Assembly: GCA_016212105.1 (NCBI GenBank)
Contig: JACRHJ010000032.1
Location: 1-64,000, forward strand
Reading direction: 5' to 3'
DNA: 64,000 bases
Origin: Nitrospirota bacterium
GTDB taxonomy: Bacteria > Nitrospirota > JACRHJ01
Shown: positions 9,962 through 62,264 of the stretch, in pieces
Layout of the letters: each line of letters begins with the position of its first letter
Position numbering within the stretch: position 1 is the stretch's first letter
Program-made: the position numbers and the translations under genes
The notes under the pieces: model-generated
The model's input: only the letters and a program-made list of their open reading frames with translations
What the model was told of the DNA's origin: nothing
Databases searched by the model: none

Positions 9962-10002
9962 TTCCCGCCTTTTTGTTAAAAGGCGGCCCAAAAACTTTCG
10001 TG
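9962..10002 (-). repeat. GGGAC hairpin, copy 1 (5' of dnaN)
   Basis: On the minus strand it reads AAAGTTTTTGGGCCGCC...; stem CCGCCTTTT / AAAAGGCGG, degenerate GGGAA at its CDS-proximal end, about 30 bases before the dnaN start. Confidence 0.75.
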
Positions 10003-10126
10003 CAGCAGACTGTCGTGTATTCGACTGTCATTCCCGCGAAAGCGGGAATCCATTGTAATATTCCAAGGTCAAAATGGACCCCCGTTTTCACGGGGGTGAC
10101 ACTAATTGAGCGGCCGGAGGCAGCCC

Positions 10127-10169
10127 AAAAGTTTTCGGGCCGCCCTAATACATTAGGGCGGGACTTTCA
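10127..10169 (+). repeat. GGGAC hairpin, copy 2 (3' of dnaA)
   Basis: Stem CCGCCCTAAT / ATTAGGGCGG with loop AC, a compensated variant. Its GGGAC end faces the dnaA stop about 10 bases away. Confidence 0.8.
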
Positions 10170-10178
10170 CTTTTGCCT

Positions 10179-11555
10179 TTATCCCTTGACCTGCTTTATA
10201 AGGTTCTCGACCTCCGCGTCGAACTTGAGGTCGTTCTGCCTTTTCTCCTCGACCTGGCGGCAGGCGTGCATGACGGTGGTGTGGTCCTTGCCGCCGAAGG
10301 CCTTGCCGACCTCGGGGAGCGAGTTGCCAGCCACGGTGCGGCATAGGTACATTGCGAGCTGCCTCGGCTGGACGAGCCGCTGGGTGCGCTTCTTGGACTT
10401 TATCTCGGCCACCTTTATCTGGTGCCTGTCCGCGATGAGCCTTATTATCTCGTCGGTGCTCATCACTTTTGTCTTCTCGGTGATGATGTCCCTGAGGACG
10501 CCCTTGGCGAGTTCCATGTTAATCTCGCGGCCGGTCAAGGACGCGTACGCGCCGAGCCTGATGAGCGAGCCCTCGAGCTCGCGGACGTTCGACTTTATGT
10601 TATTCGCGAGGAACATCGCCACGTCCTGGGGCAGCTCGATGCCCTCCTGGCGGGCCTTCCTCTCGACTATCGCCGCCTTGGTCTCCAGGTCCGGGGCCTG
10701 GATGTCCGCGATGAGCCCCCACTCGAAGCGGGAGCGGAGCCTCTCCTCCATGTCCGGCATGTCCTTGGGGAAGCGGTCGGACGAAAGCACTATCTGCTTC
10801 GAGTACTCGTGGAGCGTGTTGAAGGTGTGGAAGAACTCCTCCTGCGTGCGCTCCTTGCCGGCAATGAACTGTATGTCGTCTATCGCGAGGACGTCGGTGT
10901 TCCTGTACTTGTTCCTGAACTCGGTCATCCTGTTGTAGTGGATGCTGTTTATCAGCTCGTTTGTGAACTCCTCTGAAGTCATGTACGTAATCTTGGTCTT
11001 GGGGGAGCGCTCCTTCATGAAGCCGCAAATGGCCGAGAGGAGGTGCGTCTTGCCGAGGCCGACGCCTCCGTATATGAAGAGCGGGTTGTATGCCCTGCCC
11101 GGGTTCTCGGCGACTGCGAGCGCGGCCGCGTGCGCGAACTGGTTGGACGGGCCGACGACGAATGTCGAGAACGTGTACTTTGGGTTCAGGCCGTGCGGTT
11201 TGGTCTTCTGCCGGGGCGGCTCCGGGACGGAGGCCTCTTCCGGAGCGGCCTCGGCGGAAGGCTCCTCGTCCATGACCTCGCCGGTCTCCTCGCCGTTTTC
11301 GTCCTTCATTATCTGGAATGCTATCGAGACCTCTTCCCTTTCGAGGACCTCCGACAGGATGCGGGCAAGCAGGTCCATGTAGTGGTCGAGGAGCCACTGC
11401 TTGAAGAACTTGTTCGGGACCGCGAGGACGACGCTGTCGTCCTTTATCACGGCTATCCTGACCGGCCGGAACCAGGTGTCATAGTTCTGGCGGCTGACCT
11501 CCTTCAGTATCCTTTTCTGTGCAAGCGCCCAGAAGTCCTTCTCCTGCTCGGTCAT
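10179..11555 (-). CDS. dnaA: Chromosomal replication initiator DnaA
   Basis: A 458-residue AAA+ initiator that binds the DnaA boxes of oriC and opens the duplex. Domain I (about 1-85, FWALAQKRILKEVSRQNYDTWF) mediates DnaB/DnaA contacts. Domain II is an acidic Pro/Ala/Glu linker (about 90-120). Domain III has Walker A GGVGLGKTH and Walker B VLAIDDIQF. Domain IV ends with the DnaA signature GKDHTTVMHACRQV. Start is ATG 11553-11555 with CAGGAA about 9 bases upstream. The leader holds a palindromic pair of DnaA boxes at 11638-11657 that overlaps plausible promoter elements, so autoregulation is likely (inference). Confidence 0.97.
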   Translation of the reverse strand: MTEQEKDFWALAQKRILKEVSRQNYDTWFRPVRIAVIKDDSVVLAVPNKFFKQWLLDHYMDLLARILSEVLEREEVSIAFQIMKDENGEETGEVMDEEPSAEAAPEEASVPEPPRQKTKPHGLNPKYTFSTFVVGPSNQFAHAAALAVAENPGRAYNPLFIYGGVGLGKTHLLSAICGFMKERSPKTKITYMTSEEFTNELINSIHYNRMTEFRNKYRNTDVLAIDDIQFIAGKERTQEEFFHTFNTLHEYSKQIVLSSDRFPKDMPDMEERLRSRFEWGLIADIQAPDLETKAAIVERKARQEGIELPQDVAMFLANNIKSNVRELEGSLIRLGAYASLTGREINMELAKGVLRDIITEKTKVMSTDEIIRLIADRHQIKVAEIKSKKRTQRLVQPRQLAMYLCRTVAGNSLPEVGKAFGGKDHTTVMHACRQVEEKRQNDLKFDAEVENLIKQVKG

Positions 11556-11636
11556 GAAAACTATTCCTGTTTAGCTGTAAAGTTGTTTCAGTAAAAGGGA
11601 TAAGGTCTAAAAATCGGCTTATAAGTTACACACACC

Positions 11637-11658
11637 GTTATCAACAGGTGTTGATAAC
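11637..11658. promoter_or_regulatory. Palindromic pair of DnaA boxes
   Basis: GTTATCAACA, spacer GG, TGTTGATAAC: two convergent 9-mer boxes 2 bases apart, just inside the dnaA leader. Expected to bind DnaA both for origin opening and for repression of dnaA. Confidence 0.8.
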
Positions 11659-12005
11659 TTTATAAACCTTATATTATCAATATCTTAAACCACCAAAAGT
11701 CCCCGCTTCCGGCCAGCTTTCCATACCGTTTAACCCCTCGAATTTCCTTGATTTTGCCGGTGTGGAACATTCCCGGCCGGAGGGCACTGTCATCTCTATT
11801 ACTTCAGGGTTATTCCCGTGCTTGGGACTCGCCGGGCCCAGGCTGCTTCCGGCCGGCGGCCCCGGCAGGTGGTATTGCGGGATTTAGAAATATACCAAAT
11901 CCGTGCGTCATTATCAAGTTATTTGTGTCCTCCGGGAATATGGCCTGCCCCGGCAGGCTTATCCTGTTGATAAGCTCTATACAGTTTTTCCCGGCCCGGT
12001 CTGCA

Positions 12006-12043
12006 TGTGGATAACCCGCTTCCCTGCCCGTATGTTATCAACA
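12006..12043. promoter_or_regulatory. DnaA box pair, right cluster
   Basis: TGTGGATAA at 12006-12014 (minus-strand consensus TTATCCACA) and TTATCAACA at 12035-12043. With TGTTGATAA at 11965-11973 they form the rpmH-side cluster. Confidence 0.8.
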
Positions 12044-12198
12044 GGGACCGCCTTGCTTATTTCTTTCACAAATCGGGGCCGTATACAGGTTATCAGGATA
12101 TCCACGCCAATGACTATCTGTTACGGCTTATTTTGAAAAACTGTATAAAGAGAACAGAGGCGTCCAAAAACATGCCGGAATGACCCCGTTGTTTTTTC

Positions 12199-12226
12199 TT
12201 GACTTTTGAAGCTTCATGAGTATAAT
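12199..12226 (+). promoter_or_regulatory. Sigma-70-type promoter of rpmH-rnpA
   Basis: TTGACT and TATAAT are separated by 16 bases, about 55 bases before the rpmH start. It is the best promoter match in the origin region. Confidence 0.75.
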
Positions 12227-12281
12227 TTAGGATTTTGTTCGAGAGAACGCAACCGAAAGCGATACCAGAAAGGGATAGACG

Positions 12282-12419
12282 ATGAGCCTTACATTTCACA
12301 ACCCCAGCAACCTCAAGCAGAAGAAGACACACGGTTTCCGTGCCAGGATGGCCACTCCCGGCGGCAGGAACGTCATCAGGAGAAGGCGCGCCAAGGGCAG
12401 GAAAAGGCTTACCCACTAA
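12282..12419 (+). CDS. rpmH: 50S ribosomal protein L34
   Basis: A 45-residue, highly basic protein: [20 protein letters not shown] at the start, an [17 protein letters not shown] core and KRLTH at the end. This is the standard L34 pattern and length. L34 is a late-assembling protein of the large ribosomal subunit. It is first in an operon with rnpA and yidD, starting about 55 bases after a good promoter, and diverges from dnaA across oriC as in many bacteria. The TAA is 3 bases before the rnpA start. Confidence 0.95.
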
Positions 12420-12422
12420 AAC

Positions 12423-12776
12423 GTGGGTAACGAGGCCGGCAGGATAACCAGAAGGTCCGACTACGTCCGGGTCCACAAGCTGGGCAGGAAGCACGTCGGC
12501 AGGTTCCTGCTGCTCTTCCACCTGGCGGGCGGGACGTCCGGGTTACGTGTCGGTATTACCGTCAGCTCCAAGGTCGGCGGCGCAGTCGTCAGAAACCGCG
12601 CCAAGCGAAGGATCCGCGAGGCCGTCCGTGCCGAGCTGGGCGATGTGGGCGAGGGTGGGCAGACGGTGCTTTGTGTTTCCGGGGAGGTCGCCCTTGTCGC
12701 GCTCGGCCGCATAAGGGACGCCTCCTTTGACGAGATCAAGGCGGACCTCGCATCTCTTCTGAAAAGGGTGGCATGA
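12423..12776 (+). CDS. rnpA: Ribonuclease P protein component
   Basis: A 117-residue basic protein subunit of RNase P, which trims 5' leaders of pre-tRNAs with the RnpB RNA. The RNR motif is VVRNRAKRRIREA near residues 58-70, and the N-terminal ITRRSDYVRVHKLGRK is the usual entry of the fold. It starts with GTG 12423-12425, 3 bases after rpmH. The stop TGA 12774-12776 directly abuts the yidD ATG, so all three genes are likely translated together. Confidence 0.93.
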   Translation: MGNEAGRITRRSDYVRVHKLGRKHVGRFLLLFHLAGGTSGLRVGITVSSKVGGAVVRNRAKRRIREAVRAELGDVGEGGQTVLCVSGEVALVALGRIRDASFDEIKADLASLLKRVA

Positions 12777-12986
12777 ATGAAGTGGCCGCTGCTTTTACTT
12801 ATCCGGGCGTACAAGCTCCTGATTTCGCCCCTGCTCCCGCCTTCCTGCCGGTTTTACCCGACATGTTCAGACTATGCATACGAGGCGGTGGACAGGTACG
12901 GCCTGTTTAAAGGTTCTTATCTGGCGGCAAGGCGTATCGCAAGGTGTCACCCTTATAACCCTGGCGGGTACGACCCGGTGAAATAG
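12777..12986 (+). CDS. yidD: Membrane protein insertion efficiency factor YidD
   Basis: A 69-residue protein with an amphipathic N-terminal helix ([19 protein letters not shown]) and the conserved [15 protein letters not shown] and [16 protein letters not shown] segments, with all three family cysteines. It helps YidC/Sec insert membrane proteins at the inner membrane. The ATG follows the rnpA stop with no spacing. yidC follows after about 160 bp that hold two opposed GGGAC hairpins. Confidence 0.93.
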
Positions 12987-12989
12987 TTA

Positions 12990-13030
12990 AGTCGCGCTTT
13001 TTTGTAAAAAAGCGCCCAAAAAACTTTTAT
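12990..13030 (-). repeat. GGGAC hairpin, copy 3 (3' of yidD)
   Basis: Shortened variant: CGCTTTTTT / AAAAAAGCG stem. It starts GTCGCGC only 3 bases past the yidD stop and ends AAACTTTT. Confidence 0.7.
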
Positions 13031-13072
13031 CGCGCCTCCGGCCACGTATACACGTGGAGTGCAAATAACTAT

Positions 13073-13113
13073 TAAAAGTTTTCGGGCCGCCCTTTTACAA
13101 AAGGGCGGGACTG
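13073..13113 (+). repeat. GGGAC hairpin, copy 4 (5' of yidC)
   Basis: Stem CCGCCCTTTT / AAAAGGGCGG, loop AC. The GGGAC end faces the yidC start 35 bases on. Copies 3 and 4 form an opposed pair around a GCCTCCGGC core. Confidence 0.8.
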
Positions 13114-13147
13114 TTGTTTTTCTTCTTTTAAGGTTTTATAAGGACAT

Positions 13148-14704
13148 ATGGAAAAGAGAATGTTGATAGCGGTCGGGCTCTCGATCGCGGTACTTGCGCT
13201 CTTCAGCTTGCTGTTCCCGTCGAGGCCGGTCGCTCCTGTCCCCGTAAAGGCAGCGAAGACCGCCGATGCGCCAGCCGGACAGGTAACGGAGCCTGCCGCG
13301 CTCCCGGCCGCGGCTCCCGCCGCGCCCGTAACCGCCCCCGCCGCCATACCCGACGTCCCGGAACGCCTTATAACAATAGAAACAGACCTGTATACCGCCG
13401 TGATATCCACGCGTGGCGGCGTCATCAAGAGCTGGAAGCTCAAGGCATACAAGGACGATACAGGCGCGCCCATCGAGATGGTCGTGTTCAAATCCGGCCT
13501 GATGCCACTTACAGTCGCGCCAGACGGCATGAACATCGCTTCGGCCGGGGCAGTGCCATACCAGGCGGACGTCGCGGGTGATACCATCAATGTGAACGGC
13601 GAGGCACCGCTCGTCCTTGTGTATAACGCCCCGGACGGAACATCCATCACCAAGTCCATGAAGTTCAAGACCGGCACGTATGCGGTGGACATGAAGGTGG
13701 ACGTCACCGGATTCAGCGGATACAACCTGTATATGGGCGAGAGCTTCGGCAGCCTGACTACCGCTGACAAAAAGGACTACGGGCATGTCGGGCCTATCAC
13801 CTTCTTCGACGGCGTCACCAAGAAGGACGAGAAGGACGACATGGAGAAGGATACGGTCGAGTACTCCGGGACGACCGGCTGGACCGCCATATCCGACAAG
13901 TACTTCATGGCGGCGGTCGCGCCGGACGGGCCGATCAGGGCGGTAGTCAGCAAGGGCACGTCCGACTGGGGATACGTCGGCGTTACGGGGGCCCCGGGCG
14001 CGAGCTTCGTCGTCTATGCAGGGCCCAAGGAGTTCGACCGGCTCAAGGCGCTCGGACACGACCTGGACGCTGCGGTCGACTTCGGCTGGTTTACGTTCAT
14101 AGGCAAGCCGCTCTTCGTCGCGCTCCAGTACTTCAACAGCATGGTGGCCAACTGGGGCTGGGCGATAATAATCGTCACCATAATCATAAAGGTCCTTTTC
14201 GCCCCGCTCACGCACAAGTCCCAGAAGTCCATGAAACGCATGCAGAAGCTCCAGCCGCTCTTCGCCGAGCTGAAAGAGAAGCACAAGGGCGACCCGCAGA
14301 AGCTGAACATCGAGATGATGGAGCTGTACAAGAAGCACAAGGTAAACCCGATGGGTGGCTGTCTGCCGATGCTCGTCCAGATGCCTGTCTTCTTCGCGCT
14401 TTACAGCGTACTGAACAACGCCATAGAGCTCAGGAGCGCGCCGTTCGCCCTCTGGATAACCGACATGTCGGCTAAGGACCCGTACTACGTCCTGCCGGTC
14501 CTGATGGGCGCGTCCATGCTCCTGATGCAGAAGATGACGCCTACCTCGATGGACCCGATGCAGAACAGGATAATGATGATAATGCCGGTCGTCCTGACGT
14601 TCATGTTCATCAACCTGCCGTCCGGCCTCGTCCTGTACTTCGTCGTCAGCAACCTGCTGTCGATGGCCCAGCAGCTCTACATCAACAAGTACGTTACGGA
14701 CTGA
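13148..14704 (+). CDS. yidC: Membrane protein insertase YidC
   Basis: A 518-residue insertase of the Gram-negative type. An N-terminal membrane helix (about 5-22) is followed by an Ala/Pro-rich linker, a large periplasmic beta domain (about 70-300), and then the conserved 60-kDa inner-membrane-protein domain: VANWGWAIIIVTIIIKVLFAP, the hairpin with KMKRMQKLQP-type sequence, KHKVNPMGGCLPMLVQMPVFFALY, and the final LPSGLVLYFVVSN. It inserts membrane proteins with or without SecYEG. It is part of the rpmH-rnpA-yidD-yidC block but set off by repeats. Start is ATG 13148. Confidence 0.95.
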   Translation: MEKRMLIAVGLSIAVLALFSLLFPSRPVAPVPVKAAKTADAPAGQVTEPAALPAAAPAAPVTAPAAIPDVPERLITIETDLYTAVISTRGGVIKSWKLKAYKDDTGAPIEMVVFKSGLMPLTVAPDGMNIASAGAVPYQADVAGDTINVNGEAPLVLVYNAPDGTSITKSMKFKTGTYAVDMKVDVTGFSGYNLYMGESFGSLTTADKKDYGHVGPITFFDGVTKKDEKDDMEKDTVEYSGTTGWTAISDKYFMAAVAPDGPIRAVVSKGTSDWGYVGVTGAPGASFVVYAGPKEFDRLKALGHDLDAAVDFGWFTFIGKPLFVALQYFNSMVANWGWAIIIVTIIIKVLFAPLTHKSQKSMKRMQKLQPLFAELKEKHKGDPQKLNIEMMELYKKHKVNPMGGCLPMLVQMPVFFALYSVLNNAIELRSAPFALWITDMSAKDPYYVLPVLMGASMLLMQKMTPTSMDPMQNRIMMIMPVVLTFMFINLPSGLVLYFVVSNLLSMAQQLYINKYVTD

Positions 14705-14717
14705 AAGCAAAGGCAAG

Positions 14718-14755
14718 GTCCCGCCTTCTTGTAAGAAGGCGGCCCAAGAACTTTT
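14718..14755 (-). repeat. GGGAC hairpin, copy 5 (3' of yidC)
   Basis: Begins GTCCC 14 bases past the yidC stop. Stem CCGCCTTCTT / AAGAAGGCGG. Confidence 0.8.
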
Positions 14756-14787
14756 GTGAGTTATATATATACCGCCGGAGGCCGCAT

Positions 14788-14827
14788 AAAAGTTTTTTGG
14801 CCGCTTTTTTTCAAAAAAGCGGGACCT
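14788..14827 (+). repeat. GGGAC hairpin, copy 6 (5' of the PocR gene)
   Basis: Stem CCGCTTTTTT / AAAAAAGCGG, loop TC. The GGGAC end faces the next start 22 bases away. It is preceded by GCCGGAGGCC, a motif shared with other copies. Confidence 0.8.
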
Positions 14828-14847
14828 TCTCTTAAAGGGGTTTCATT

Positions 14848-16815
14848 ATGCCGGGAACTGTTTCTCTGTCCGAGACGCTTGTCGGGTGGCATGAGGTCCA
14901 GGAGTCGCTCGCGCGTCTGACCGGGCTGGAGTACGCGGTCTATGACGTGCACGGCAACCCCATCGGCATGGTGAGCGGGGAGAGCCCGTTCTGCCGCGCC
15001 GCGCGGAGGCGCGAGTCCGACACCGCAACCTGCGACGACCAGTGCGGCCGGTTCATCAGGTCCTCGCCCGGCAGGCCCGGGGTAAGGTATTACAAGTGCG
15101 GCAACGGCCAGAACGTCTTCGCGCTCACCGTCAAGAGCGGGGGACAGGACGTGGTCATAGCGGGCGGCAAGACCTTCTCGAACCGGCAGGAGTACGAGGG
15201 CGCTATCAAGGGCCTAATGGAAGGCACGGGCCGTCTGTCTCTCACCGGGAAGCACCGTTACCGTTTCGTCGGCAGGAAGAGGCTCAAGGAGACGGTAGAC
15301 CTCGTACAGGCCGCCGCCGGCCGACATTTCGACATATCCCACCAGAAACAGAAATACCAGACAAGGCTCTCCCGGCTGTCCGCGCTCCTCGAGAACGTAT
15401 CGCTCCTGTACCACGAGGGCGGCACGGACGGCTTCGTGCGCGGCATGCTACGGAACCTGTCCGTCCTGTTCGACGCGGATGCGGCCACGCTTACGACCTA
15501 CGGGCCGGGCATGGGGCCGCACGGGGAGACGACGGTGCACGAGCAGGGTGACATCGCCGGCCTTATCCCGGCCGAGACGCTCGGCCTGGCCCTCGCCAGG
15601 AGGCACGCCCGCTCACCCGAGATATACAGGACGGGCAAGGCGAGCGACATGGACGGACTCGGGCTCGGCGGCATCGCCGGCGCCGCAGTCAGCGTCCCGT
15701 TCTACAGGTCGGGCGCGCTTGAGGGCGTCGTCTGCCTGGTAAACCCCGGCTTCGCCCCGGACGAGGCGCCGTCTCTGCGCGCGTACATCCAGCAGTGCGC
15801 GGCTATCCTCGAGAACAAGCGCCTCAAAGGCGAGCTGCGCGACAAGATGAAGGGCCTGAAGGAGCTGGTCGACATCGGCTCGAAGATCGGCCCGATGATG
15901 GACACGGCGGACATACTGAGGTTCATCTTCGACAAGTCGGCCGAGATTATCCGCGCGGAGCGCGGCTCGCTCATGCTAATAAACGAGGCGACCGACGAGC
16001 TGGTGGTCAAGGTCTCGCGCGGCATGAGTTCCGAGCTGTCCGCAAGCCTCAGGCTAAAGCTCGGCGAGGGCATCGCGGGCGGCGTGGTAACGACCGGGAC
16101 CCCGCTCGTCGTGCGCGATATGGAGACGGACGCCCGGCTCTCCGTGAGGAAGCGTCCACGCTACACGACACGGTCTTTCATAAGCCTGCCGCTCAAGGCC
16201 GAGGGGCGTGTCATCGGCGTCCTGAACCTCTCCGACAAGGAGAACGGCGAGCCTTTCGGCGAGGAGGACCTCGAGGTCCTGTCGTCGTTCGCCTCCCAGG
16301 CCGCGGTCGCGCTGGAGCGGGCTATATACTACGGGAAGGCGGAGGAACTCAGGCAGTCCTCGATCATGGACCCGGTCACCGGCCTCCTCAACCAGCGGTA
16401 CTTCAGCGACCGGCTGTTTGAGGAGATAGACCGCTCCGAGCGCTACGGCCGCAGGTTCAGCCTGCTCGTCGTCCGGCTCGACGGGCTCAAGGGCTTTGGG
16501 GGCAGGCTGGGAAGGCGGGCATCGGACGAGGCGGTAGTCGAGACCGCAAGGGCGCTCCGGGGCATGCTCCGCTCGAACGACATCGTCTCCCGCTACAGCG
16601 AGGAGGGCTTCGCCATCGCCCTGCCCGAGACGGACAACGACAGCGCCGCCCTTCTCGCGGGACGCATACAGGAGACGGTCTCGTGCCTCGGGTTCGCGGC
16701 CCGGGACGAGGGAGCAGCCGGGCGCATAACCGTCCACCTGGGCCTCGCAAGCTACCCCGAGGACGGCCTGGCACTCAAGGACCTGTTCGACAAGGCGTCC
16801 GCGCTGGCGGGGTAA
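14848..16815 (+). CDS. PocR-GAF-GAF sensor with degenerate GGDEF domain
   Basis: A 655-residue cytoplasmic signalling protein with no membrane segment. The N-terminal part (about 8-150) resembles the PocR ligand-binding domain, with cysteines in SPFCRAARR, TATCDDQCGRF and YYKCGNGQNVFAL. Two GAF domains follow (about 180-330 and 345-495), then a GGDEF fold (about 505-655). The GG[DE]EF motif is replaced by YSEEGF, so diguanylate cyclase activity is unlikely; it may bind GTP or act as a scaffold. It lies between yidC and mnmE, where jag is often found; I see no jag. GGGAC hairpins flank it on both sides, pointing inward. Start ATG 14848 has AAAGGGG upstream. Confidence 0.8.
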   Translation: MPGTVSLSETLVGWHEVQESLARLTGLEYAVYDVHGNPIGMVSGESPFCRAARRRESDTATCDDQCGRFIRSSPGRPGVRYYKCGNGQNVFALTVKSGGQDVVIAGGKTFSNRQEYEGAIKGLMEGTGRLSLTGKHRYRFVGRKRLKETVDLVQAAAGRHFDISHQKQKYQTRLSRLSALLENVSLLYHEGGTDGFVRGMLRNLSVLFDADAATLTTYGPGMGPHGETTVHEQGDIAGLIPAETLGLALARRHARSPEIYRTGKASDMDGLGLGGIAGAAVSVPFYRSGALEGVVCLVNPGFAPDEAPSLRAYIQQCAAILENKRLKGELRDKMKGLKELVDIGSKIGPMMDTADILRFIFDKSAEIIRAERGSLMLINEATDELVVKVSRGMSSELSASLRLKLGEGIAGGVVTTGTPLVVRDMETDARLSVRKRPRYTTRSFISLPLKAEGRVIGVLNLSDKENGEPFGEEDLEVLSSFASQAAVALERAIYYGKAEELRQSSIMDPVTGLLNQRYFSDRLFEEIDRSERYGRRFSLLVVRLDGLKGFGGRLGRRASDEAVVETARALRGMLRSNDIVSRYSEEGFAIALPETDNDSAALLAGRIQETVSCLGFAARDEGAAGRITVHLGLASYPEDGLALKDLFDKASALAG

Positions 16816-16830
16816 AGGCGAAAGGCAACA

Positions 16831-16868
16831 CCCCGCCTTCTTGTAAGAAGGCGGCCCAAGAACTTCTA
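16831..16868 (-). repeat. GGGAC hairpin, copy 7 (3' of the PocR gene)
   Basis: Stem CCGCCTTCTT / AAGAAGGCGG. The CCCC end faces the upstream stop 15 bases away. It is also the outer end of the left inverted repeat around mnmE. Confidence 0.8.
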
Positions 16869-18437: not shown

Positions 18438-18441
18438 TTGA

Positions 18442-18679: not shown

Positions 18680-18814
18680 GGGCCGACACGCGGGTCGGCC
18701 CCTATAGAAAAGCAGGACCTTCGGCGCGCCGGGGGCGTCGCGCCCTACGAAATCCCGATGCCGGAGGCCTTATAAAAGTTCTTGGGCCGCCTTCTTACAA
18801 GAAGGCGGGACTTT
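18680..18814 (-). repeat. Right arm of inverted repeat flanking mnmE
   Basis: Near-identical reverse complement of 16831-16962. The differences are a few substitutions next to the hairpin and at the GCCGAC block. Confidence 0.85.
18773..18814 (+). repeat. GGGAC hairpin, copy 8 (5' of mnmG)
   Basis: AAAAGTTCTTGGGCCGCC, stem closed by AAGAAGGCGG, GGGAC end 22 bases before the mnmG start. Inner end of the right inverted-repeat arm. Confidence 0.8.
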
Positions 18815-20725: not shown

Positions 20726-20757
20726 GTTACTTTTCTTTCAGGTGAAAGAAAAGTAAC
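20726..20757. repeat. GTTAC hairpin
   Basis: Perfect 15-bp arms (GTTACTTTTCTTTCA and complement) around GG. The same family occurs at 40071-40102. Confidence 0.75.
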
Positions 20758-20806
20758 ACAAAAGAAAGCCAATAGGTTTAAGGGCCGACCAACGGGAGGC
20801 CATCTC

Positions 20807-20850
20807 AAAAAAGTTTTCGGGCCGCCCTTTTACAAAAGGGCGGGACTTTA
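20807..20850 (+). repeat. GGGAC hairpin, copy 9 (5' of rsmG)
   Basis: Stem CCGCCCTTTT / AAAAGGGCGG, loop AC. The GGGAC end is about 12 bases before the rsmG start. Confidence 0.8.
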
Positions 20851-25058: not shown

Positions 25059-25291
25059 CATGTTGTTTTCATATTAAAGGCAGGGCCGACACGACGGTCG
25101 GCCCCTACAAATTTGTAGGGGAGGACCCTCGTGTCCTCCCTTCTTGTATTATATAAAAGCAGGTCCCTCGGCTTCGCTCGGGACGACAGGAGTATGCACT
25201 AACCCGTTAAAAGTTTTTTGGCCGCATTTTTACAAAAAAGCGGGGTCTTTTCCGGGGTTTATCCCCGGGTCATAAAAGGAGGCACAGCATT
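25059..25291. repeat. Repeat cluster downstream of parB
   Basis: A GCCGAC hairpin (about 25082-25110), a GTAGGGGAGGACCCTCGTG block (about 25115-25145, also near 37805), a GGTCCCTCGGCTTCGCTCGG repeat (about 25163-25190) and GGGAC copy 10. Confidence 0.7.
25209..25251 (+). repeat. GGGAC hairpin, copy 10 (5' of the bactofilin gene)
   Basis: Imperfect stem CCGCATTTTT / AAAAAAGCGG with one mismatch. The right end reads GGGGTC and faces the bactofilin start about 40 bases on. Confidence 0.65.
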
Positions 25292-31334: not shown

Positions 31335-31393
31335 AGGAAAAAAGCAGGTCCCTCCGCTTCGGTCGGGACGACGGCATCAATGCCAACCTCTCA

Positions 31394-31435
31394 ATAGTTT
31401 CTGGGCCGCCTCTTTACAAAGAGGCGGGACTTTTC
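31394..31435 (+). repeat. GGGAC hairpin, copy 11 (5' of the TPR gene)
   Basis: Stem CCGCCTCTTT / AAAGAGGCGG, loop AC. The GGGAC end is about 45 bases from the TTG start that follows. Confidence 0.8.
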
Positions 31436-40070: not shown

Positions 40071-40102
40071 GTTACTTTCTTTTCAGGTGAAAAGAAAGTA
40101 AC
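40071..40102. repeat. GTTAC hairpin after rph
   Basis: Perfect 15-bp arms (GTTACTTTCTTTTCA and complement) around GG, sister of 20726-20757. Confidence 0.75.
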
Positions 40103-40144
40103 ACAAAGAAAAGCCGATAGTTTAAAACCCATGATTTTCTTTGG

Positions 40145-40174
40145 GTACCTTTCTTTTTTCCAAAAGAAAGGTAC
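40145..40174 (+). promoter_or_regulatory. Hairpin covering the rdgB ribosome-binding site
   Basis: Arms GTACCTTTCTTTT and AAAAGAAAGGTAC with loop TTCC. The AAAGG that should serve as ribosome-binding site for rdgB lies in the 3' arm, so folding would mask it. Confidence 0.5.
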
Positions 40175-40177
40175 GGT

Positions 40178-45793: not shown

Positions 45794-46003
45794 AAGCTTG
45801 AACCGTCATCCCCGCCCCGGCTTTTTGCATTCCGGGGTAGACTCCAGCGGGAATCCAGAAACTTCCTGGACCCCGTGTCAAGCACGGGGCGACAACCATA
45901 TACTCAACAATTAAAAGTTCTTGGGCCGCCTTCTTTCAAGAAGGCGGGACGTTGATTTCCGATTAAGGAGGGGCCAGGAGCCGGCAGTTCAGGTTCCTGG
46001 CCT
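45794..46003. repeat. Repeat cluster between lpxC and the TPR gene
   Basis: A long CCCGCCCCGGCTTTTTGCAT repeat (about 45808-45860), a CCCCGTGTCAAGCACGGGG repeat (about 45868-45892) and GGGAC copy 12. Confidence 0.65.
45913..45952 (+). repeat. GGGAC hairpin, copy 12 (3' of the TPR gene)
   Basis: Stem CCGCCTTCTT / AAGAAGGCGG with loop TC. The GGGAC end faces the minus-strand stop at 46004, about 52 bases away. Confidence 0.8.
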
Positions 46004-56087: not shown

Positions 56088-57221
56088 TTATCCCTGCACG
56101 TGGCACGAGTCGCAGGCGTCCGCCGCGAAGGCCTTCTTCCCGTTGTGGCAGCTTCCGCAGTATTTTCCGTTATTGATCTTGTCCATCGTCATCTTGCCCG
56201 CCGTCTTCTTGAAACCGAACAACGCGGTATGGCAGTCCTGGCATTTCATGCCCATGCCCATGTGGTTGTCGTGGGAGAACCTCACAGGCCCGAAGCCCTC
56301 AACGTTGTAGGCCACGGTGCCGCCGCCCTTCGCGCCGCCCATGTGGCAGCGGCCGCAGTCCGACGCCGGGAACGCGCCCTTGCCGTTGTGGCATGTGCCG
56401 CAGCCCTTGCCGGAGAACATCGCGGCCATAGTCATCTTCCCGCTGGAGCGCGTCATCTTGAAGGCCTTGTCGTGGCAGGAGTCGCAGGTGAGCCCCTTGG
56501 ACATGTGCTTCTTGTGGTCGAAGGAGACGTCGCCCGCGGACGCCACCGCATAGGTTATCCTGCCGCCGCCCACCTTGCCGCTCATCGATACGCCTGTCGG
56601 CATCCCGTTCGGGTGGCACATGCCGCACGAGGTCGTCTTCTCGTCGTGGCAGGTGTAGCAGGTGTCCATCGTCGGGCGGTAGGTCGCAAATCCGGCCGGC
56701 CGCCTCTCGTGGAATATGTTGTAGTGGCAGTAGGTGCACTTTATGCCCAGCTCGCCGATATGCTTCTGGTGCGGCATCCGCACCCGCTCGTTCGCGGGCC
56801 TCGCGCTGCTCGCCGCCTCCACGCCGACTTTTTTGTCGAGGTCGTCCTTGTGGCAGCCGAGGCAGCGCTCGGAGACGAGGTCCTCCTTGGCCGAGAACCG
56901 GAAGTGGAACGCCGCCGCCATCACCCCCGGCTCCGAGACGTCGTGGCAGGTCGCGCAGTTGATGTCCGGGTGCAGCGCGGACTTCTGCCAGAAGTTCTGG
57001 TCGCGCTGGTTGACGTGGCAGTTCAGGCAGTAGAGCTTCTGGGTGCCGACCAGGTGCACGAAGCCCAGAGAGAGTACCACGCCCGGCAGCGCCAGCACCG
57101 CGAGGACGAGAAGCAGCGTCGTCTTCTTTATCCCGGACAGCTTCTTGATGAGCGGCCTGACATCCGGCGACGGCGCCTTCATGATCAGGTCAATCAGCCT
57201 GTTGTTCTTATCGTTGCCCAT
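56088..57221 (-). CDS. Membrane-anchored 12-haem cytochrome with two triheme repeats
   Basis: A 377-residue protein with one N-terminal membrane helix (about 33-56), then a NapC/NrfH-like or related region with six CxxCH motifs (CLNCH, CATCH, CLGCH, CTYCH, CYTCH, CGMCH). Two tandem 62-residue triheme units follow: 232-293 (FDHKKHM, CDSCH, CGTCHNGKGAF, CGRCH) and 312-374 (FSHDNHM, CQDCH, CGSCHNGKKAF, CDSCH). The triheme unit matches the pattern I know as the nanowire-type three-haem repeat. It probably carries electrons between the quinone pool or the molybdoenzyme and periplasmic acceptors. Last gene of the minus-strand operon. Confidence 0.9.
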   Translation of the reverse strand: MGNDKNNRLIDLIMKAPSPDVRPLIKKLSGIKKTTLLLVLAVLALPGVVLSLGFVHLVGTQKLYCLNCHVNQRDQNFWQKSALHPDINCATCHDVSEPGVMAAAFHFRFSAKEDLVSERCLGCHKDDLDKKVGVEAASSARPANERVRMPHQKHIGELGIKCTYCHYNIFHERRPAGFATYRPTMDTCYTCHDEKTTSCGMCHPNGMPTGVSMSGKVGGGRITYAVASAGDVSFDHKKHMSKGLTCDSCHDKAFKMTRSSGKMTMAAMFSGKGCGTCHNGKGAFPASDCGRCHMGGAKGGGTVAYNVEGFGPVRFSHDNHMGMGMKCQDCHTALFGFKKTAGKMTMDKINNGKYCGSCHNGKKAFAADACDSCHVQG

Positions 57222-57256
57222 TTTGGACTCCTTTATCAGGATGCTGTAAACCTATT

Positions 57257-57298
57257 AAAAGTTCTTGGGCCGCCTTCTTACAAGAAGGCGGGACTTTT
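57257..57298 (+). repeat. GGGAC hairpin, copy 13 (3' of the molybdoenzyme gene)
   Basis: Stem CCGCCTTCTT / AAGAAGGCGG, loop AC. GGGAC faces the minus-strand stop at 57309, about 14 bases away. Confidence 0.8.
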
Positions 57299-57308
57299 CT
57301 TCAGTCTT

Positions 57309-59507
57309 TTAAGCTTTTGCGAGTGTTACCTTTGTCAGCATCCAGCCCTGCCCGCCGGACTCCTTGTCCACGGCGAACGGTATTATCCGGTTCGGGTTTA
57401 CGCCGAGGCCTTCGCCCTCCTGGTGCCACCAGACGCAGTCGGTGAAGGGGTCCTGGCTTTCAAACCGCTCGGCCTTCTCTATCTTGCCGTAGCCCGCGTG
57501 GCCGGAGCCCGCCGCGAGCGCGACCGTCCTCGGATGCACGCCCGGCGAGAGCATCACCTCGACCTCTATCTTCCCGGCCGAGGTCGTGAGGTGCACCTTG
57601 TCGCGCGTCCCCAGTCCGAGCGCCCGGCCGACGGCCGCGTTGATGAACACCCGGCTCCCGTGGTTTATCTCCTTCAGGTAGAGGTTGTTCTCCGTCGAGC
57701 CCTCGTTGTAGCCTGTCGGGTCGTACTTGACCAGGACGAACTCGTCGTCCCGGAAGTTCTTGTACTGCTCCGGCTGCTCGTATGACGGGAGCGCCGGCCC
57801 GTCCTTCCAGGCGATGTCTATCTTGCCGGACGGCGTCGCGTACCCGGACAGGCCCGCCCCGCCCATTATCCCGTGGCTGCCGTGGCTTGACGTGTAGTAG
57901 AAACCGGTCGCGGCGAGGTTGTCGATGCCCGCGCCCAGCCTCGACGCCGCCTGCGCGGCGTAGTCCTCCGAGTCCGAGTACCCGAGCGGCCTGCCCGCGG
58001 CGGACGCGATGCCCGCGAGGATTTCCACGAAGGGCTTCGTCCCGCCGACTGGTATGACCACCGGCTGGCCGTAGTTGACGACAGGCTCGCCGTCCGGGCC
58101 CGGCACGACGTCCACCGAGTACTCCTCGAGGTACGTCGTCACGGGAAGCACCAGGTCCGCGTACAGGCCGGTGTCCGATATGTTTGTGTCCATGCAGACG
58201 ATGAACGGCAGCGCCGTCTCGTCGGCGAGGAGCTTCGCTATCTCGCCCGCCTCCGGCGAGCCGTAGGCCGGGTCCGCGCCGTGTATGATGTACGCGCCGA
58301 CCCTGCGGCTTCCGTCCTTGATGGACTTGTAGAAGGCCTCCGGGGCAACCCTCTCCGCGCCCTTGACCGGCCCTTCAGCCTTGAGGTATTTCGGCATCAG
58401 GTTGCAGCCCCGCCTGTTCAGCTTGCCGGTTATGACGGACAAAAGCCGTACCGCGCGCTCGTTGGACGTCCCGTTCGGGTGCTTGCTTACGCCGCCGCCG
58501 GTCAGGACGACGCCTTTGTCCACGCGGGCGAACTCGGCCGCGAGCCGCCTGATGTCGTCTGCCTTGACTCCGCTTATCCGCTCCGCGAGCGACGGCGTGA
58601 ACGAGGCCAGGTGTTCCTTCAGCGCCGACGGGGTGGTGTTCGTCCAGCGCGCGATGAAGGATCCGTCGTACAGCCCCTCGTGCATTATCACGTTCGCCAT
58701 GGCGAGCGCCACGACAGTGTCCGTGCCCGGAAGGAGCGGCATCCACTCGTCGCTCCGGCCCGCCGTCGGCGACAGCCTCGGGTCGAACGTCACAAGCTTC
58801 ACCGTGCTGTCCTTCGACCGGGCGGAGACTATGTCCGCGACCGCCCTGACGCCGGACGACCCGCATGAGAACGGGTCCGCGCCGAAGTTGAGTATGTAAC
58901 CGGTGTTCGCAAGGTCCGGTACGTCCGTGGTACAGCCGAACGTGCCGGTGAGCGCCGCCTCGCGGCTCGGCGAGACGCTGCAACCGTGCGAGACGAGCAG
59001 CCCGCCGCCAAGCCTGGACAGGAACTCCTCGCTTGCGCCTGAGGACGGCCCGCCCGCGGTCTCGACCACGAGCTTCCGGCCCGTGGAGGATTTCAGGTGT
59101 TTTGCTATCTCGGACGCGGCGTCTTCCCACGATATTTCCTGCCAGCGGCCCTCGCCGCGTTTGCCCGTCCTCCTCATCGGCTTCGTCAGGCGTTCCGGGT
59201 CGCACTGCGCGTACAGCCCGGCCTGGCCGATAAGGCAGAGCCTGCCCTGGTTCACCGGGTGCGCCGGGTTGCCGTTCAACTTCATAAGGACGCCGTCCTG
59301 GACGTACGCCACTATCCCGCAGCCCGCCCCGCAGCCGCCGCAGGACGTCGGGATGCCCTTTACGCGCTTGCCGGTGTTGCGGTTCACGTAGTATCCGCCC
59401 TGGTCGGCCGAGGATGCGAACAGCTCTCCGAAGAGGCTGTTGGCCGCCAAGACGGAGGCCCCTGCCGCCGTGTATTTTAGGAAGTCCCTCCTGAGTATCG
59501 TCTTCAT
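57309..59507 (-). CDS. Tat-exported molybdopterin oxidoreductase (PsrA/PhsA-like)
   Basis: A 732-residue catalytic subunit of the DMSO-reductase superfamily. A Tat signal (LRRDFLKYTAAGASVLAA) puts it in the periplasm. The N-terminal [4Fe-4S] ligands are Cys56, Cys59, Cys63 and Cys91. HGCSVSPSREAA offers Cys176 as likely Mo/W ligand, as in polysulfide/thiosulfate-type enzymes. The C-terminal molybdopterin dinucleotide-binding region (INHGSRVFINAAVGRALGLG) is complete. With the NrfD and ferredoxin genes next to it, it forms a CISM (PsrABC-like) complex. The substrate cannot be read from sequence: polysulfide, thiosulfate, tetrathionate or another. CGGAGG precedes its ATG. Confidence 0.92.
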   Translation of the reverse strand: MKTILRRDFLKYTAAGASVLAANSLFGELFASSADQGGYYVNRNTGKRVKGIPTSCGGCGAGCGIVAYVQDGVLMKLNGNPAHPVNQGRLCLIGQAGLYAQCDPERLTKPMRRTGKRGEGRWQEISWEDAASEIAKHLKSSTGRKLVVETAGGPSSGASEEFLSRLGGGLLVSHGCSVSPSREAALTGTFGCTTDVPDLANTGYILNFGADPFSCGSSGVRAVADIVSARSKDSTVKLVTFDPRLSPTAGRSDEWMPLLPGTDTVVALAMANVIMHEGLYDGSFIARWTNTTPSALKEHLASFTPSLAERISGVKADDIRRLAAEFARVDKGVVLTGGGVSKHPNGTSNERAVRLLSVITGKLNRRGCNLMPKYLKAEGPVKGAERVAPEAFYKSIKDGSRRVGAYIIHGADPAYGSPEAGEIAKLLADETALPFIVCMDTNISDTGLYADLVLPVTTYLEEYSVDVVPGPDGEPVVNYGQPVVIPVGGTKPFVEILAGIASAAGRPLGYSDSEDYAAQAASRLGAGIDNLAATGFYYTSSHGSHGIMGGAGLSGYATPSGKIDIAWKDGPALPSYEQPEQYKNFRDDEFVLVKYDPTGYNEGSTENNLYLKEINHGSRVFINAAVGRALGLGTRDKVHLTTSAGKIEVEVMLSPGVHPRTVALAAGSGHAGYGKIEKAERFESQDPFTDCVWWHQEGEGLGVNPNRIIPFAVDKESGGQGWMLTKVTLAKA

Positions 59508-59520
59508 CCAAGCACCTCCG

Positions 59521-60444
59521 CTACATGATAGGTATGAACTGTCCGCCGACCGTCACCGTGTACCGCATTATGTACACGCCGATGAGCGCGAAGACCATGA
59601 GGACGGCCCATACCTTTAGGTTTTTGTTGACGCCCGGCACAGCCATCGCAAGCACCGGCAGGAGGTTCCCGAGACCCAGGTCGACATACGCGTAGAGGCT
59701 GCTCAGGTGGCCGGTCAAAAGCATCTTGGCCGCCTCGACCGCCTCCTCCGACTCGAACCGCATGTTCACCTGCTCCGTGAAGACTATGAACAGGTTCAGT
59801 ATCATGAACACGCCCGCGAGACGCGTAAGGTTTATCAGGAGGCCGTTGTCCGTCTCCTTCTCGTGCTCGTCGGCCCAGGAGTCCTTCCTGTTCTTGGTCC
59901 AGTGCCGGATGATGCCTATGAGCGTCATCAGCGCAATGCCCGAGACCATCGCCGAGGACAGGAAGTATATCGGCATGAGCGACGTGCTCCAGGCCACGCG
60001 GGATATGCCCATCGAAAGGACGAAGCCCGTGTAGGCATGCACGCCAATGGCGAGCGGCAGGCTTATCGCGCCGAATATCTTCGCGTACTTCATGTTGTTC
60101 TTGAAGAGCATTACGATGTAAATCGTGGTGGTTATCGGGTAGGAGCAGAGGAAGACCGAGCCCCACGTAAGCGGCGAGGTCGAGTTGCCCCTCGTCATAA
60201 GGTACCAGAACCTGAGCGGCTGTCCCAGGTCCACGACCAGCAGTATCGGCGCGGTCGAGAAGAGTATGATGACCCCTATCGCGCCTATCTTGGCTATCGG
60301 CTTGTACTCCTTCTTGCCGGTAAGCGTCGCGCCGATAGAGAGCAGAGAGCAGCCGGCGTGCAGGCCGACCATGTAGAAGTACGTCGCTATCGCTATGGTC
60401 AGCGGTATCTCGTGCGGCACGTTGTACAGAACGTTCATGTCCAT
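59521..60444 (-). CDS. NrfD/PsrC-type membrane quinone-interacting subunit
   Basis: A 307-residue polytopic membrane protein with about eight hydrophobic segments. VPHEIPLTIAIATYFYMVGL, HAGCSLLSIG, LLVVDLGQPLRFWYLM and the final KVWAVLMVFALIGVYIMRY are NrfD-type. It should anchor the molybdoenzyme/ferredoxin arm and exchange electrons with (mena)quinone. It starts at ATG 60442-60444 after AGGAGG, in a leader carrying GGGAC hairpin copy 14. The molybdoenzyme gene starts 13 bases after its stop. Confidence 0.93.
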   Translation of the reverse strand: MDMNVLYNVPHEIPLTIAIATYFYMVGLHAGCSLLSIGATLTGKKEYKPIAKIGAIGVIILFSTAPILLVVDLGQPLRFWYLMTRGNSTSPLTWGSVFLCSYPITTTIYIVMLFKNNMKYAKIFGAISLPLAIGVHAYTGFVLSMGISRVAWSTSLMPIYFLSSAMVSGIALMTLIGIIRHWTKNRKDSWADEHEKETDNGLLINLTRLAGVFMILNLFIVFTEQVNMRFESEEAVEAAKMLLTGHLSSLYAYVDLGLGNLLPVLAMAVPGVNKNLKVWAVLMVFALIGVYIMRYTVTVGGQFIPIM

Positions 60445-60460
60445 GTTGTCGGCCTCCTGT

Positions 60461-60502
60461 AAAGTCCCGCCTTCTTGTAAGAAGGCGGCCCAAGAACTTT
60501 TA
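60461..60502 (-). repeat. GGGAC hairpin, copy 14 (5' of the NrfD gene)
   Basis: Stem CCGCCTTCTT / AAGAAGGCGG. The GGGAC end runs straight into the AGGAGG ribosome-binding site, about 17 bases from the start. Confidence 0.85.
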
Positions 60503-60578
60503 ATGGGTTAGACCCCTGACCGCCAGTTTATCCCCCTCCCCACCCGCGGGGGGGGGAAGGGGGGCTGGGGGGGCCCCT

Positions 60579-61217
60579 TTAGAATATCTCTTCGAGAACC
60601 TTGTGGTCGTGCTCGATGCTGTACTCGACGTCTATGCCCTTGAGCGGGTCCGCCATGTCCTTGTCCAGCCCGACGTAGAAGACGGACGGCAGGGTGCCCG
60701 AGTCCGGCTTCAGCACCGAGGTCGGCAGCTTTATCAGGAGCTGCGCCACCTCGCTCTCCGGGTCGTTCATGTCGCCAAAGACACGGGCCCCGGCGGGGCA
60801 GGTCTCGACGCAGGCGGGCTTCAGGCCCGCGTCGACCCTGTGGCTGCAGAAGTAGCACTTCTGGGCGTACTTCCTTACAGGGTTCAGGTAACGCACCTGG
60901 TACGGGCAGGCCGCCATGCAGTACTTGCAGCCGGTGCACTTGTGCGGGTCAATCAATACGATGCCGTCGTCACGCTGGTACGACGCCTTCGTGGGACAGA
61001 CCCGGACGCATATAGCCTTCTCGCAGTTGTTGCAGAGGACCGGCAGGGACATGGTCCTGGCGACCGGATAATCGCCCTTCTCCATGACCTTCACCCAGGA
61101 CCTCCAGACCGCGGGCGGGACTTCGTTCTCCGCCTTGCACGCGACAGAGCAGCTGTGGCAGCCGATGCACCTGGTGAGGTCTATGACCATCGCGTATCTC
61201 TTGGCCGTGTTCGACAT
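60579..61217 (-). CDS. Four-cluster [4Fe-4S] ferredoxin subunit (PsrB/DmsB-like)
   Basis: A 212-residue iron-sulfur electron-transfer subunit. It has four Cys groups: CIGCHSCSVAC (17-27), CNNCEKAICVRVCP, CTGCKYCMAACP and CYFCSHRVDAGLKPACVETCP. This is the classic DmsB/PsrB/NrfC layout, linking the molybdoenzyme to the NrfD subunit. It has no signal peptide and is expected to be co-exported with the Tat-signalled partner. Gene order ferredoxin, NrfD, molybdoenzyme, cytochrome is on one strand. A 12-bp-arm hairpin lies before its start. Confidence 0.93.
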   Translation of the reverse strand: MSNTAKRYAMVIDLTRCIGCHSCSVACKAENEVPPAVWRSWVKVMEKGDYPVARTMSLPVLCNNCEKAICVRVCPTKASYQRDDGIVLIDPHKCTGCKYCMAACPYQVRYLNPVRKYAQKCYFCSHRVDAGLKPACVETCPAGARVFGDMNDPESEVAQLLIKLPTSVLKPDSGTLPSVFYVGLDKDMADPLKGIDVEYSIEHDHKVLEEIF

Positions 61218-61253
61218 GATGGCTCCTTGATGTCAGTGGATATGATGTGCTTG

Positions 61254-61290
61254 CCGCCCCGTCCCCTGTGCTTTTACCGGGACGGGGCGG
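61254..61290 (-). other. GC-rich hairpin inside the respiratory operon
   Basis: Perfect 12-bp arms (CCGCCCCGTCCC and complement) with a 13-base loop stand between the fourth small membrane protein and the ferredoxin gene. There is no U tract, so it could act as a processing or stability hairpin rather than a terminator. Confidence 0.45.
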
Positions 61291-61303
61291 GGGGGGGTAT
61301 TCT

Positions 61304-61639
61304 TCAGTTTACCTTCGTCTCCGAATGCGCAAGCTCGCGGTGCTCCTTGGGCTCGGTCAAGGCGCCGTATGCGTGGCCTGTCAGCCAGCCTATCGAGGAG
61401 CAGGTCACCACGAAGAATATGCCGGTGACCAGGACGCCCGCCAGCATGGACGCTCCGACTATCACCCTCGAAAGGAGCGTCGTCCCGGCCGGGGTATGGA
61501 ACACGTTGTTGACTATGTCGAGGCCTATCGCCCCGCCGATGAGTGAACCCTGGAGCAGGCCGAAGAGCGCGAACATCACAAGCCCCACACCCGCGCCAAC
61601 CAGCCCGTATTTCCTGCCCATCTGGTCTTTGTACTTCAT
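61304..61639 (-). CDS. Two-helix glycine-rich membrane protein, paralogue 4
   Basis: A 111-residue member of a set of four tandem paralogues. First hairpin: VGLVMFALFGLLQGSLIGGA then IGLDIVNN. Second: LLSRVIVGASMLAGVLVTGI then FFVVTCSSIGWLTG. The shared pattern is F-x-x-F/L-G-x-x-Q-G-x-x-x-G-G-x-x-G-L, then x-R-x6-M-x-A-G. Short charged N- and C-termini. The function is not recognised. AAGGAGG precedes its ATG. It is the gene next to the ferredoxin subunit of a molybdoenzyme complex, so a structural or assembly role there is possible. Confidence 0.75.
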   Translation of the reverse strand: MKYKDQMGRKYGLVGAGVGLVMFALFGLLQGSLIGGAIGLDIVNNVFHTPAGTTLLSRVIVGASMLAGVLVTGIFFVVTCSSIGWLTGHAYGALTEPKEHRELAHSETKVN

Positions 61640-61824
61640 GGCCTTGCCTCCTTCCAGGACGTTTGATTATGAATCCGGCAACTTTATATGCAAACGAGCG
61701 AAGTAAGAAAAGTCTCTGGATTCCCGCTTTCGCGGGAATGACGCCGTTTATTGTCGTCCCCGTGAAAACGGGGACCCAGTGTCTTTTGCATATTTAATTG
61801 CCGAAGCAATAATATGTGTGCGCG
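61640..61824. repeat. Repeats within the respiratory operon
   Basis: AATCCGGCAACT, a TCCCGCTTTCGCGGGA hairpin (about 61720-61738) and a CCCCGTGAAAACGGGG hairpin (about 61757-61776) lie between two of the paralogues. Confidence 0.6.
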
Positions 61825-62184
61825 TCAGTCCTTGCTGGTCTCCGAGGCTTCCGCGTACTCGTAACCGGCGTCGGTCGCATCCGCGCCCTGCGCGACGCTC
61901 ACGAGGTATCCGCCCGCCGCGCCTATCGCGCTGCCCGCGACCACGAAGGCCACGAAGGATATGCCGACGCCCGCGAGCATCGCGGCGGCGATTACCGCGC
62001 GCGGCAGAAGCTCGTTCGCCATCAGCCGGAGCGTCGTCTCGCCGAACAGGTAGTTTATGAGGCTGAGGCCGGCCGTGCCGCCTATCGCCGCGCCCTGGAG
62101 CAGCCCGAAGACCGCGAACATCGCCACGCCTATACTCGCGCCTATAACACCACACTTCTTCATGAGTACGCTTTTCTCTACCAT
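61825..62184 (-). CDS. Two-helix glycine-rich membrane protein, paralogue 3
   Basis: A 119-residue paralogue: IGVAMFAVFGLLQGAAIGGT then AGLSLINYLFG, and LLPRAVIAAAMLAGVGISFV then AFVVAGSAIGAAGG. It has the in-membrane Gln-Gly and the Arg...MLAG pair shared by the set. The tail is acidic (DATDAGYEYAEASETSKD). AGGAG precedes ATG 62182-62184. GGGAC hairpin copy 15 stands in its leader. The function is not recognised. Confidence 0.75.
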   Translation of the reverse strand: MVEKSVLMKKCGVIGASIGVAMFAVFGLLQGAAIGGTAGLSLINYLFGETTLRLMANELLPRAVIAAAMLAGVGISFVAFVVAGSAIGAAGGYLVSVAQGADATDAGYEYAEASETSKD

Positions 62185-62221
62185 GGTAAGGCTCCTTTCG
62201 AGGAAAACATTAAAAACCAGG

Positions 62222-62264
62222 AAAAGTCCCGCCTTCTTGTAAGAAGGCGGCCCAAGAACTTTTA
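62222..62264 (-). repeat. GGGAC hairpin, copy 15 (5' of paralogue 3)
   Basis: Stem CCGCCTTCTT / AAGAAGGCGG. GGGAC end about 40 bases before the start at 62184. Confidence 0.8.

Follow-up and report, generated by a model that had tools for sequence, protein, structure and literature searches.

Repeats able to fold into intrastrand triple helices have been known in bacteria since 2000, and were sorted into classes by Hoyne et al. (2000) and Holder et al. (2015; PMC4666352). As far as these accounts describe them, PIT and class IV motifs share the order Hoogsteen block, pyrimidine (Y) arm, purine (R) arm, are built of T.A-T and C.G-C triplets and occur in many extragenic copies. Pyrimidine-motif triplexes can form in RNA, while purine-motif ones are reported to be unable to do so; the E. 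coli PIT elements had neither promoter nor terminator effect, footprinting of the E. coli motif in vivo gave no stable triplex, and triplex motifs have been linked to genome instability in the same species (PMC4666352). The importance of the triplex in its own right has stayed an open question, in vivo footprints and functional tests of the E. coli family being negative (PMC4666352). Here we describe an element of 38 nucleotides (nt), which occurs 15 times in a stretch of 64,000 nt, hereafter the window, of contig JACRHJ010000032.1 from a Nitrospirota bacterium (assembly GCA_016212105.1), and whose architecture places it among the intrastrand-triplex repeats of the PIT type, class IV.

The element departs from the PIT motifs, as published, in having 5-6 strict triplets and not 8 or more, in falling into six covarying subfamilies, in being strictly oriented and spaced with respect to gene edges, and in being found in one species only; the minimum triplex length set in published finders (at least 6, and above 7 in Hoyne et al.) is a search threshold and not a structural definition. 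For the E. coli PIT family, neither triplet covariation nor strict placement has been reported. The BoxC, or TM-ECO, repeat of E. coli is likewise an intergenic intrastrand-triplex repeat, whose five inverted pairs always join a type A with a type B copy, but it is a G/C-rich purine-motif (class II) element with another sequence, CCCTCNCCC-N3-6-GGGNGAGGG-N3-GGGNGAGGG, to which our element does not conform; neither orientation bias nor a fixed gene distance is reported for TM-ECO, and covariation is unmentioned (PMC4666352).

A likeness is also evident with the REP and BIME sequences of RAYT transposases, which are short extragenic hairpins with a conserved 5' flank, arranged singly or in inverted pairs. 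The element, however, carries AAAAG in place of the GTAG flank, its flank changes in step with the stem, in the manner of a third strand, and no cognate Y1 transposase accompanies it. The genome contains only two Y1_Tnp genes, both RAYT-like (L041 1444-1854 and L042 271-498), each beside its own GTAG-bearing REP repeat (GTAGTTGCCCGATTCATCGGGC; GTAGGGTGGGCTACGCCCACC), and mobilisation of the element by RAYT was rejected because both genes adjoin these different repeats. RNA major-groove triplexes of the MALAT1/ENE type place a U(C) third strand in the major groove of a helix at the RNA end: the RNA triplex predicted for the element would share such a strand and its location at a transcript border, and would differ in belonging to a bacterial repeat and in having the third strand on the 5' side. 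The element does not resemble an intrinsic terminator, since GGGAC or GGCCC, and no U-tract, directly follows the stem, and a loose terminator scan flags just 2 copies in 9.9-21 kb. Nor does it resemble a MITE of DDE transposases, its units being single hairpins with no target duplication seen on inspection of the aligned flanks. The window gave no Rfam match above the gathering score.

Covariation of three strands

The original prediction, made from the window alone, reported 15 copies of a hairpin with differing but paired stems; all 15 are present where it placed them and align without gaps over 38 nt each. The box AAAAGTTYTYGGG, with up to 2 mismatches, matches the window 17 times (two matches overlap) against 3.2 expected, a number reached by no shuffle. 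A covariance model built from the 15 copies, run on the whole genome as had been proposed, retrieved 133 copies at E <= 0.01 in 3.05 Mb; this is a lower bound, because only 150 of 2530 candidates were scored, and scores fall steeply toward the end of the list. The identical set of 133 was recovered from the genome stretches around the matches, on which the counts of neighbouring repeats and tail modules given below were also taken. All these figures refer to one genome, in 61 contigs and with a completeness of 93.8%, and to gene calls by our own codon-usage caller, which has known misses, such as yidD. With 15 copies in 64 kb, the window is about five times as dense in the element as the genome on average. 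The element is a short, extragenic, high-copy palindrome, none of the 133 copies lying within a called gene.

Each copy consists of AAAA-G5, a third strand T6 T7 N8 N9 N10, the linker GGG, the Y arm (positions 14-23), a 2-3 nt loop with an invariant C, the R arm (26-35), GAC and then T-rich sequence, so that third strand, Y arm and R arm follow in this order on a single strand. The 5-6 bases preceding the linker and the CCGCC stem mirror the loop-side pyrimidine arm (flank/arm TTTTC/CTTTT, TTTCT/TCTTT, TTCTT/TTCTT, TTTTT/TTTTT, TTCTTT/TTTCTT), and are therefore complementary in parallel to the purine arm, the geometry of the pyrimidine motif with T.A-T and C.G-C triplets. By 5' flank, the copies fall into six subfamilies, TTCTT, TTTCT, TTTTC, TTTTT, TTCTTT and TTTTTT, with loop, flank and subfamily variants mixed freely among them. 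The fixed flank box AAAAGTT(C/T)T(T/C)GGG of the original prediction proved not to be constant: its variable part changes with the stem.

A perfect parallel match over 5 layers is found in 118 of 129 in-register copies, against a mean of 38.4 and a maximum of 58 in 20,000 shuffles. A flank without mirror symmetry is present in 37 copies; 28 of these match in parallel, and not one matches as a direct repeat or an antiparallel helix. Mutual information computed over 79 columns, free of any model, places the triplets 8-21-28, 9-20-29, 10-19-30 and 11-18-31 among the top pairs. In the alignment of 133 copies, the proposed covariation of the stem is borne out by 53 double-changed cells versus 7.2 in shuffles, with 99.1% of cells paired, and the parallel pairs of the third strand give 39 versus 6.9; these figures count copies, not events, and independent events are few, because the variation comes from about six subfamilies and four varying layers, each event being a three-strand change. 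Sliding the third strand by one column lowers its count to 0-1, and the antiparallel register fails in two layers; the register tests rule out the flank as a direct repeat or as a Watson-Crick partner of the stem. Layers 1-5 were modelled as T.A-T and C.G-C triplets and the sixth as T.A-T or G.G-C: strict triplets number 5 in most copies, and 11 copies, of the TTCTTT and TTTTTT subfamilies, have 6, to which G.G-C layers are added.

The third strand is held nearly as tightly as the stem, sites deviating from their own subfamily in 1.5% and about 1% of cases, respectively, while the rate is 33% at position 24 in the loop, and 16% and 19% at positions 1-3 and 37-38. G5 and the loop base C25 are nearly invariant, and may possibly contact each other at the top of the triplex. 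Copies sense and antisense to the neighbouring gene are about equally intact, third strand included. This pattern of substitutions indicates that a three-stranded fold, and not a hairpin alone, is what evolution kept, and we infer that the element physically forms a triplex. The suggestion of a selected structure is thus supported beyond its first formulation, with three covarying strands rather than two.

Scanning de novo for hairpins whose 5' flank is mirrored, we identified a second class IV family, consisting of the type CTTTCTTTT-G-N-TTAC-TTTTCTTTC and its partner CTTTTCTTT-G-N-TTAC-TTTCTTTTC. It occurs in the genome studied here and in each of the five others of its family, six in total, and not in 35 further genomes. 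An open pattern allowing every combination found 45 sites, of which 44 are perfect mirrors (listed sequences read by eye); the exception differs by a single base in its third strand, and at no site do third strand and arm come from different types. Both types are joined in each of four close inverted pairs (G004:C233:27570/27607, G005:C22:20352/20389, G005:C217:345/382 and G002:C6:53088/53131). On the evidence of these sequences, the family is an independent replicate of third-strand covariation, in two genera. The window contains it at 20727-20768 (-), at 40072-40113 (-) and, as a variant, near 40131-40175 (+), in the forms CTTTCTTTT..TTACTTTTCTTTC and CTTTTCTTT..TTACTTTCTTTTC.

The first element was found nowhere else. 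Its sequence is missing from the five same-family genomes, which belong to another genus; its exact pattern is absent from 60 relatives, where scattered 3-mismatch matches stay at the level of a reversed-pattern control; and no match to a generic T5 triplex-hairpin pattern was found in 98 relatives. No copy was found in 395 other genomes of the phylum (three matches lacked matching stem and flank), in GTDB genomes (neither of two matches being a true copy) or in IMG/VR, where the single match, in a viral contig, is due to chance. These searches point to an expansion at the species or genus level.

Placement at gene borders

The GGGAC end, or head, faces a gene start in 98 copies and a gene end in 35. 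In the window, where it had been claimed that every copy turns GGGAC toward a gene edge within 55 nt, this is true of 15 out of 15, and the gene names (dnaN, dnaA, rnpA, yidC, PocR-GAF-GGDEF, mnmG, rsmG, bactofilin, TPR, molybdoenzyme and NrfD) agree with Pfam. The window copies are the following:

9962-9999, minus strand: subfamily TTTTT; dnaN start 30 nt from the GGGAC side
10127-10164, plus strand: third strand TTTTC, arm CTAAT, stem kept and two triplets broken; dnaA 3' end 14 nt off; GCCGGAGGC tail module
12991-13028, minus strand: subfamily TTTTTT; directly 3' of the yidD stop; stem end pair C-G swapped to G-C; GCCGGAGGC tail module
13074-13111, plus strand: subfamily TTTTC; yidC start 36 nt away
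14718-14755, minus strand: subfamily TTCTT; yidC stop 13 nt before
14788-14825, plus strand: subfamily TTTTTT; PocR-GAF-GGDEF gene start 22 nt away; GCCGGAGGC tail module
16830-16867, minus strand: subfamily TTCTT; PocR-GAF-GGDEF stop 14 nt before; GCCGGAGGC tail module
18774-18811, plus strand: subfamily TTCTT; mnmG start 23 nt away; GCCGGAGGC tail module
20809-20846, plus strand: subfamily TTTTC; rsmG start 12 nt away
25209-25246, plus strand: subfamily TTTTTT; single stem mismatch; bactofilin start 45 nt away
31393-31430, plus strand: subfamily TTTCT; TPR gene start 45 nt away
45913-45950, plus strand: subfamily TTCTT; TPR gene 3' end 53 nt away, outside a terminator-like inverted repeat
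57257-57294, plus strand: subfamily TTCTT; molybdoenzyme gene 3' end 14 nt away
60464-60501, minus strand: subfamily TTCTT; NrfD gene start 19 nt away
62226-62263, minus strand: subfamily TTCTT; start of a small gene (61825-62184) 41 nt away

For the copy at 12991-13028, the computed distance is 214 nt because the gene caller missed yidD; a YidD-like C-terminus (GYDPVK, stop) can be read a few bases away.

Genome-wide, the rule holds with exceptions: 110 of 132 copies have the GGGAC side nearer to the gene, and the distance is within 55 nt for 111 of 133. Random orientation or distance from genes, which the original prediction had named as evidence against itself, is not what the genome displays, and the anchoring is specific among the repeats tested, nothing comparable being found in four other families of the same genome. 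In gaps between genes of the same direction, 90 copies are sense and 30 antisense (p about 2e-8). Sense copies lie a median of 31 nt before the start codon (interquartile range 23-41), about 18 nt before the Shine-Dalgarno sequence, and antisense copies a median of 12 nt past the stop codon (interquartile range 7-14). Variation in gap length is taken up almost wholly on the side of the third strand, the tail (rho 0.96 and 0.97). Growth of the gap on this side as the sole cause of the orientation rule is weakened as an explanation, because element-bearing sense gaps are equal in length to element-free ones. In the tightest gaps, both orientations are found at one same place, and the orientation rule is therefore a property of longer gaps.

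Of the copies more than 55 nt away from any called gene, several are parted from their gene by a sigma-70-like promoter on the head side, others turn the head toward a start or end that the caller missed, and two sit about 20-40 nt upstream of tRNA genes; the head, therefore, faces an expression unit and not a ribosome-binding site as such. Other repeats occur within 40 nt on the tail side of 34 copies, and on the head side of none. A repeat of the form GGTCCCTC(C/G)(G/A)CTTCG(G/C)TCGGGACGAC, with a total of 29 occurrences in the fetched sequence, lies within 60 nt on the third-strand side of 12 copies, in constant relative orientation (e.g. 31337-31372 and 25152-25187 in the window). The sequence GCCGGAGGC, noticed just outside several copies, is a minority tail module, replacing the usual AACCTNNY: it occurs 8 times between genes in the fetched sequence, and 7 of these occurrences do adjoin an element tail; five of the seven are in the window contig (10127, 12991, 14788, 16830, 18774), the others being C29:89402 and C32:10936. 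The upstream ACCTNWY was rejected as a promoter or anti-Shine-Dalgarno sequence: it belongs to the repeat, because 3' antisense copies carry it equally.

Possible roles of the element

The explanation we tentatively prefer, at somewhat less than even chances, is that the element is an extragenic repeat, dispersed and non-autonomous, in which the unit conserved is a triple helix of a single strand, acting as a border cap. Each copy sits where an expression unit begins or ends, its third strand pointing outward. The 98 start-facing copies, in which the strand read into the gene is the pyrimidine-motif one, would form, in the leader RNA, a triplex hairpin of that motif immediately beyond the ribosome-binding segment, where the cap may counter decay or read-through from the repeat-filled upstream gap; for the 35 end-facing copies, the transcript would carry the complementary plain hairpin just past the stop codon. 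The bolder proposition, that RNA triple-helix caps border more than 100 unrelated genes genome-wide and were selected to seal transcript ends by the ribosome-bound segment, we regard as rather unlikely. If true, it would provide a natural bacterial RNA triple helix backed by three-strand covariation over many copies. The element and the second, unrelated family in six genomes constitute comparative evidence that the three-stranded fold is kept, and function is open to test because the copies lie so strictly on one side of gene borders.

Several observations weigh against a border cap. Several copies are separated from their gene, on the GGGAC side, by a sigma-70-like promoter (e.g. C40:1833, C55:22537 and C16:84358), so that not all can be in leader RNA. 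The third strand is preserved no less well in antisense 3' copies than in sense ones, though a purine-motif RNA triplex reportedly cannot form, and the E. coli PIT elements were without effect as promoters or terminators (PMC4666352). With just four layers varying, the number of independent triplet events is small, and the near-identity of copies can also reflect recent spread. Finally, the third strand has a competitor on paper in an outer helix, AAAAGTT/GACTTTT; this helix, thermodynamically possible but without covariation, was rejected as the kept structure.

A serious contender, though distinctly below even chances, is a REP-like mobile repeat with no role for the host, whose enzyme would recognise the triplex hairpin in single-stranded DNA, so that only foldable copies spread; placement would then reflect insertion preference, other repeats landing on the third-strand side. 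About 130 near-identical copies in unrelated contexts of one species, with none in the five same-family genomes, are what such spread would leave, as are the free mixing of loop, flank and subfamily variants, the BIME-like appearance of tail-to-tail inverted pairs and the presence of both orientations at the same place in the tightest gaps. No candidate enzyme was found, however, the two Y1/RAYT genes adjoining their own GTAG repeats; no target duplication was seen; and those families of this genome that do have REP features show no anchoring to gene edges. Mobility accounts for spread and constraint about as well as the border cap, but not for the fixed distances.

Action at the DNA level appears improbable. 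An intrastrand triplex or cruciform might stall polymerases or mark chromosome borders, with an unstable third-strand side that collects repeats: this would fit the confinement of other repeats to that side, the equal constraint on sense and antisense copies, the instability associated with such motifs in E. coli and the fact that close inverted pairs never join the same subfamily (0 of 9, p about 0.05), just as E. coli pairs always join type A and type B (PMC4666352). It leaves unexplained the narrow distances of 31 nt and 12 nt and the 3:1 excess of sense copies, and the E. coli motif gave in vivo footprints without a stable triplex (PMC4666352).

We consider very unlikely a conditional RNA switch or weak terminator, in which the triplex would alternate with the outer helix. 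ViennaRNA does favour this helix, for RNA and DNA alike, and positions 37-38 vary mostly by changes preserving G-U pairing; yet the helix lacks covariation, the T-run is short and offset, with only the two flagged copies mentioned above, the genes served are unrelated, and the window has no Rfam match.

That the 5' and 3' copies at the two ends of a gene pair through their complementarity and so loop its mRNA, as the original prediction had ventured, is scarcely credible and finds no support: yidC and the PocR gene are indeed each bracketed by copies, and full-length copies in opposite orientation are complementary in principle, but the upper stems of the bracketing copies differ (subfamilies TTTTC/TTCTT at yidC and TTTTTT/TTCTT at the PocR gene), and none of the 7 '+ then -' pairs within 2.5 kb match.

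Inverted pairing of identical copies seems to be avoided alike in the nine close pairs of the element, in the second triplex family and in E. coli TM-ECO. In the window, the region at 11.5-13 kb, between the divergent dnaA (-) and rnpA/yidD/yidC (+), is a probable replication-origin region. BoxC-like polypyrimidine triplex repeats, CCCTC-rich and with CTCCC arms, are also common in the genome, at loci including L055, L061, L062, L068, L071, L095 and L125; they lie mostly near gene 3' ends, without orientation bias.

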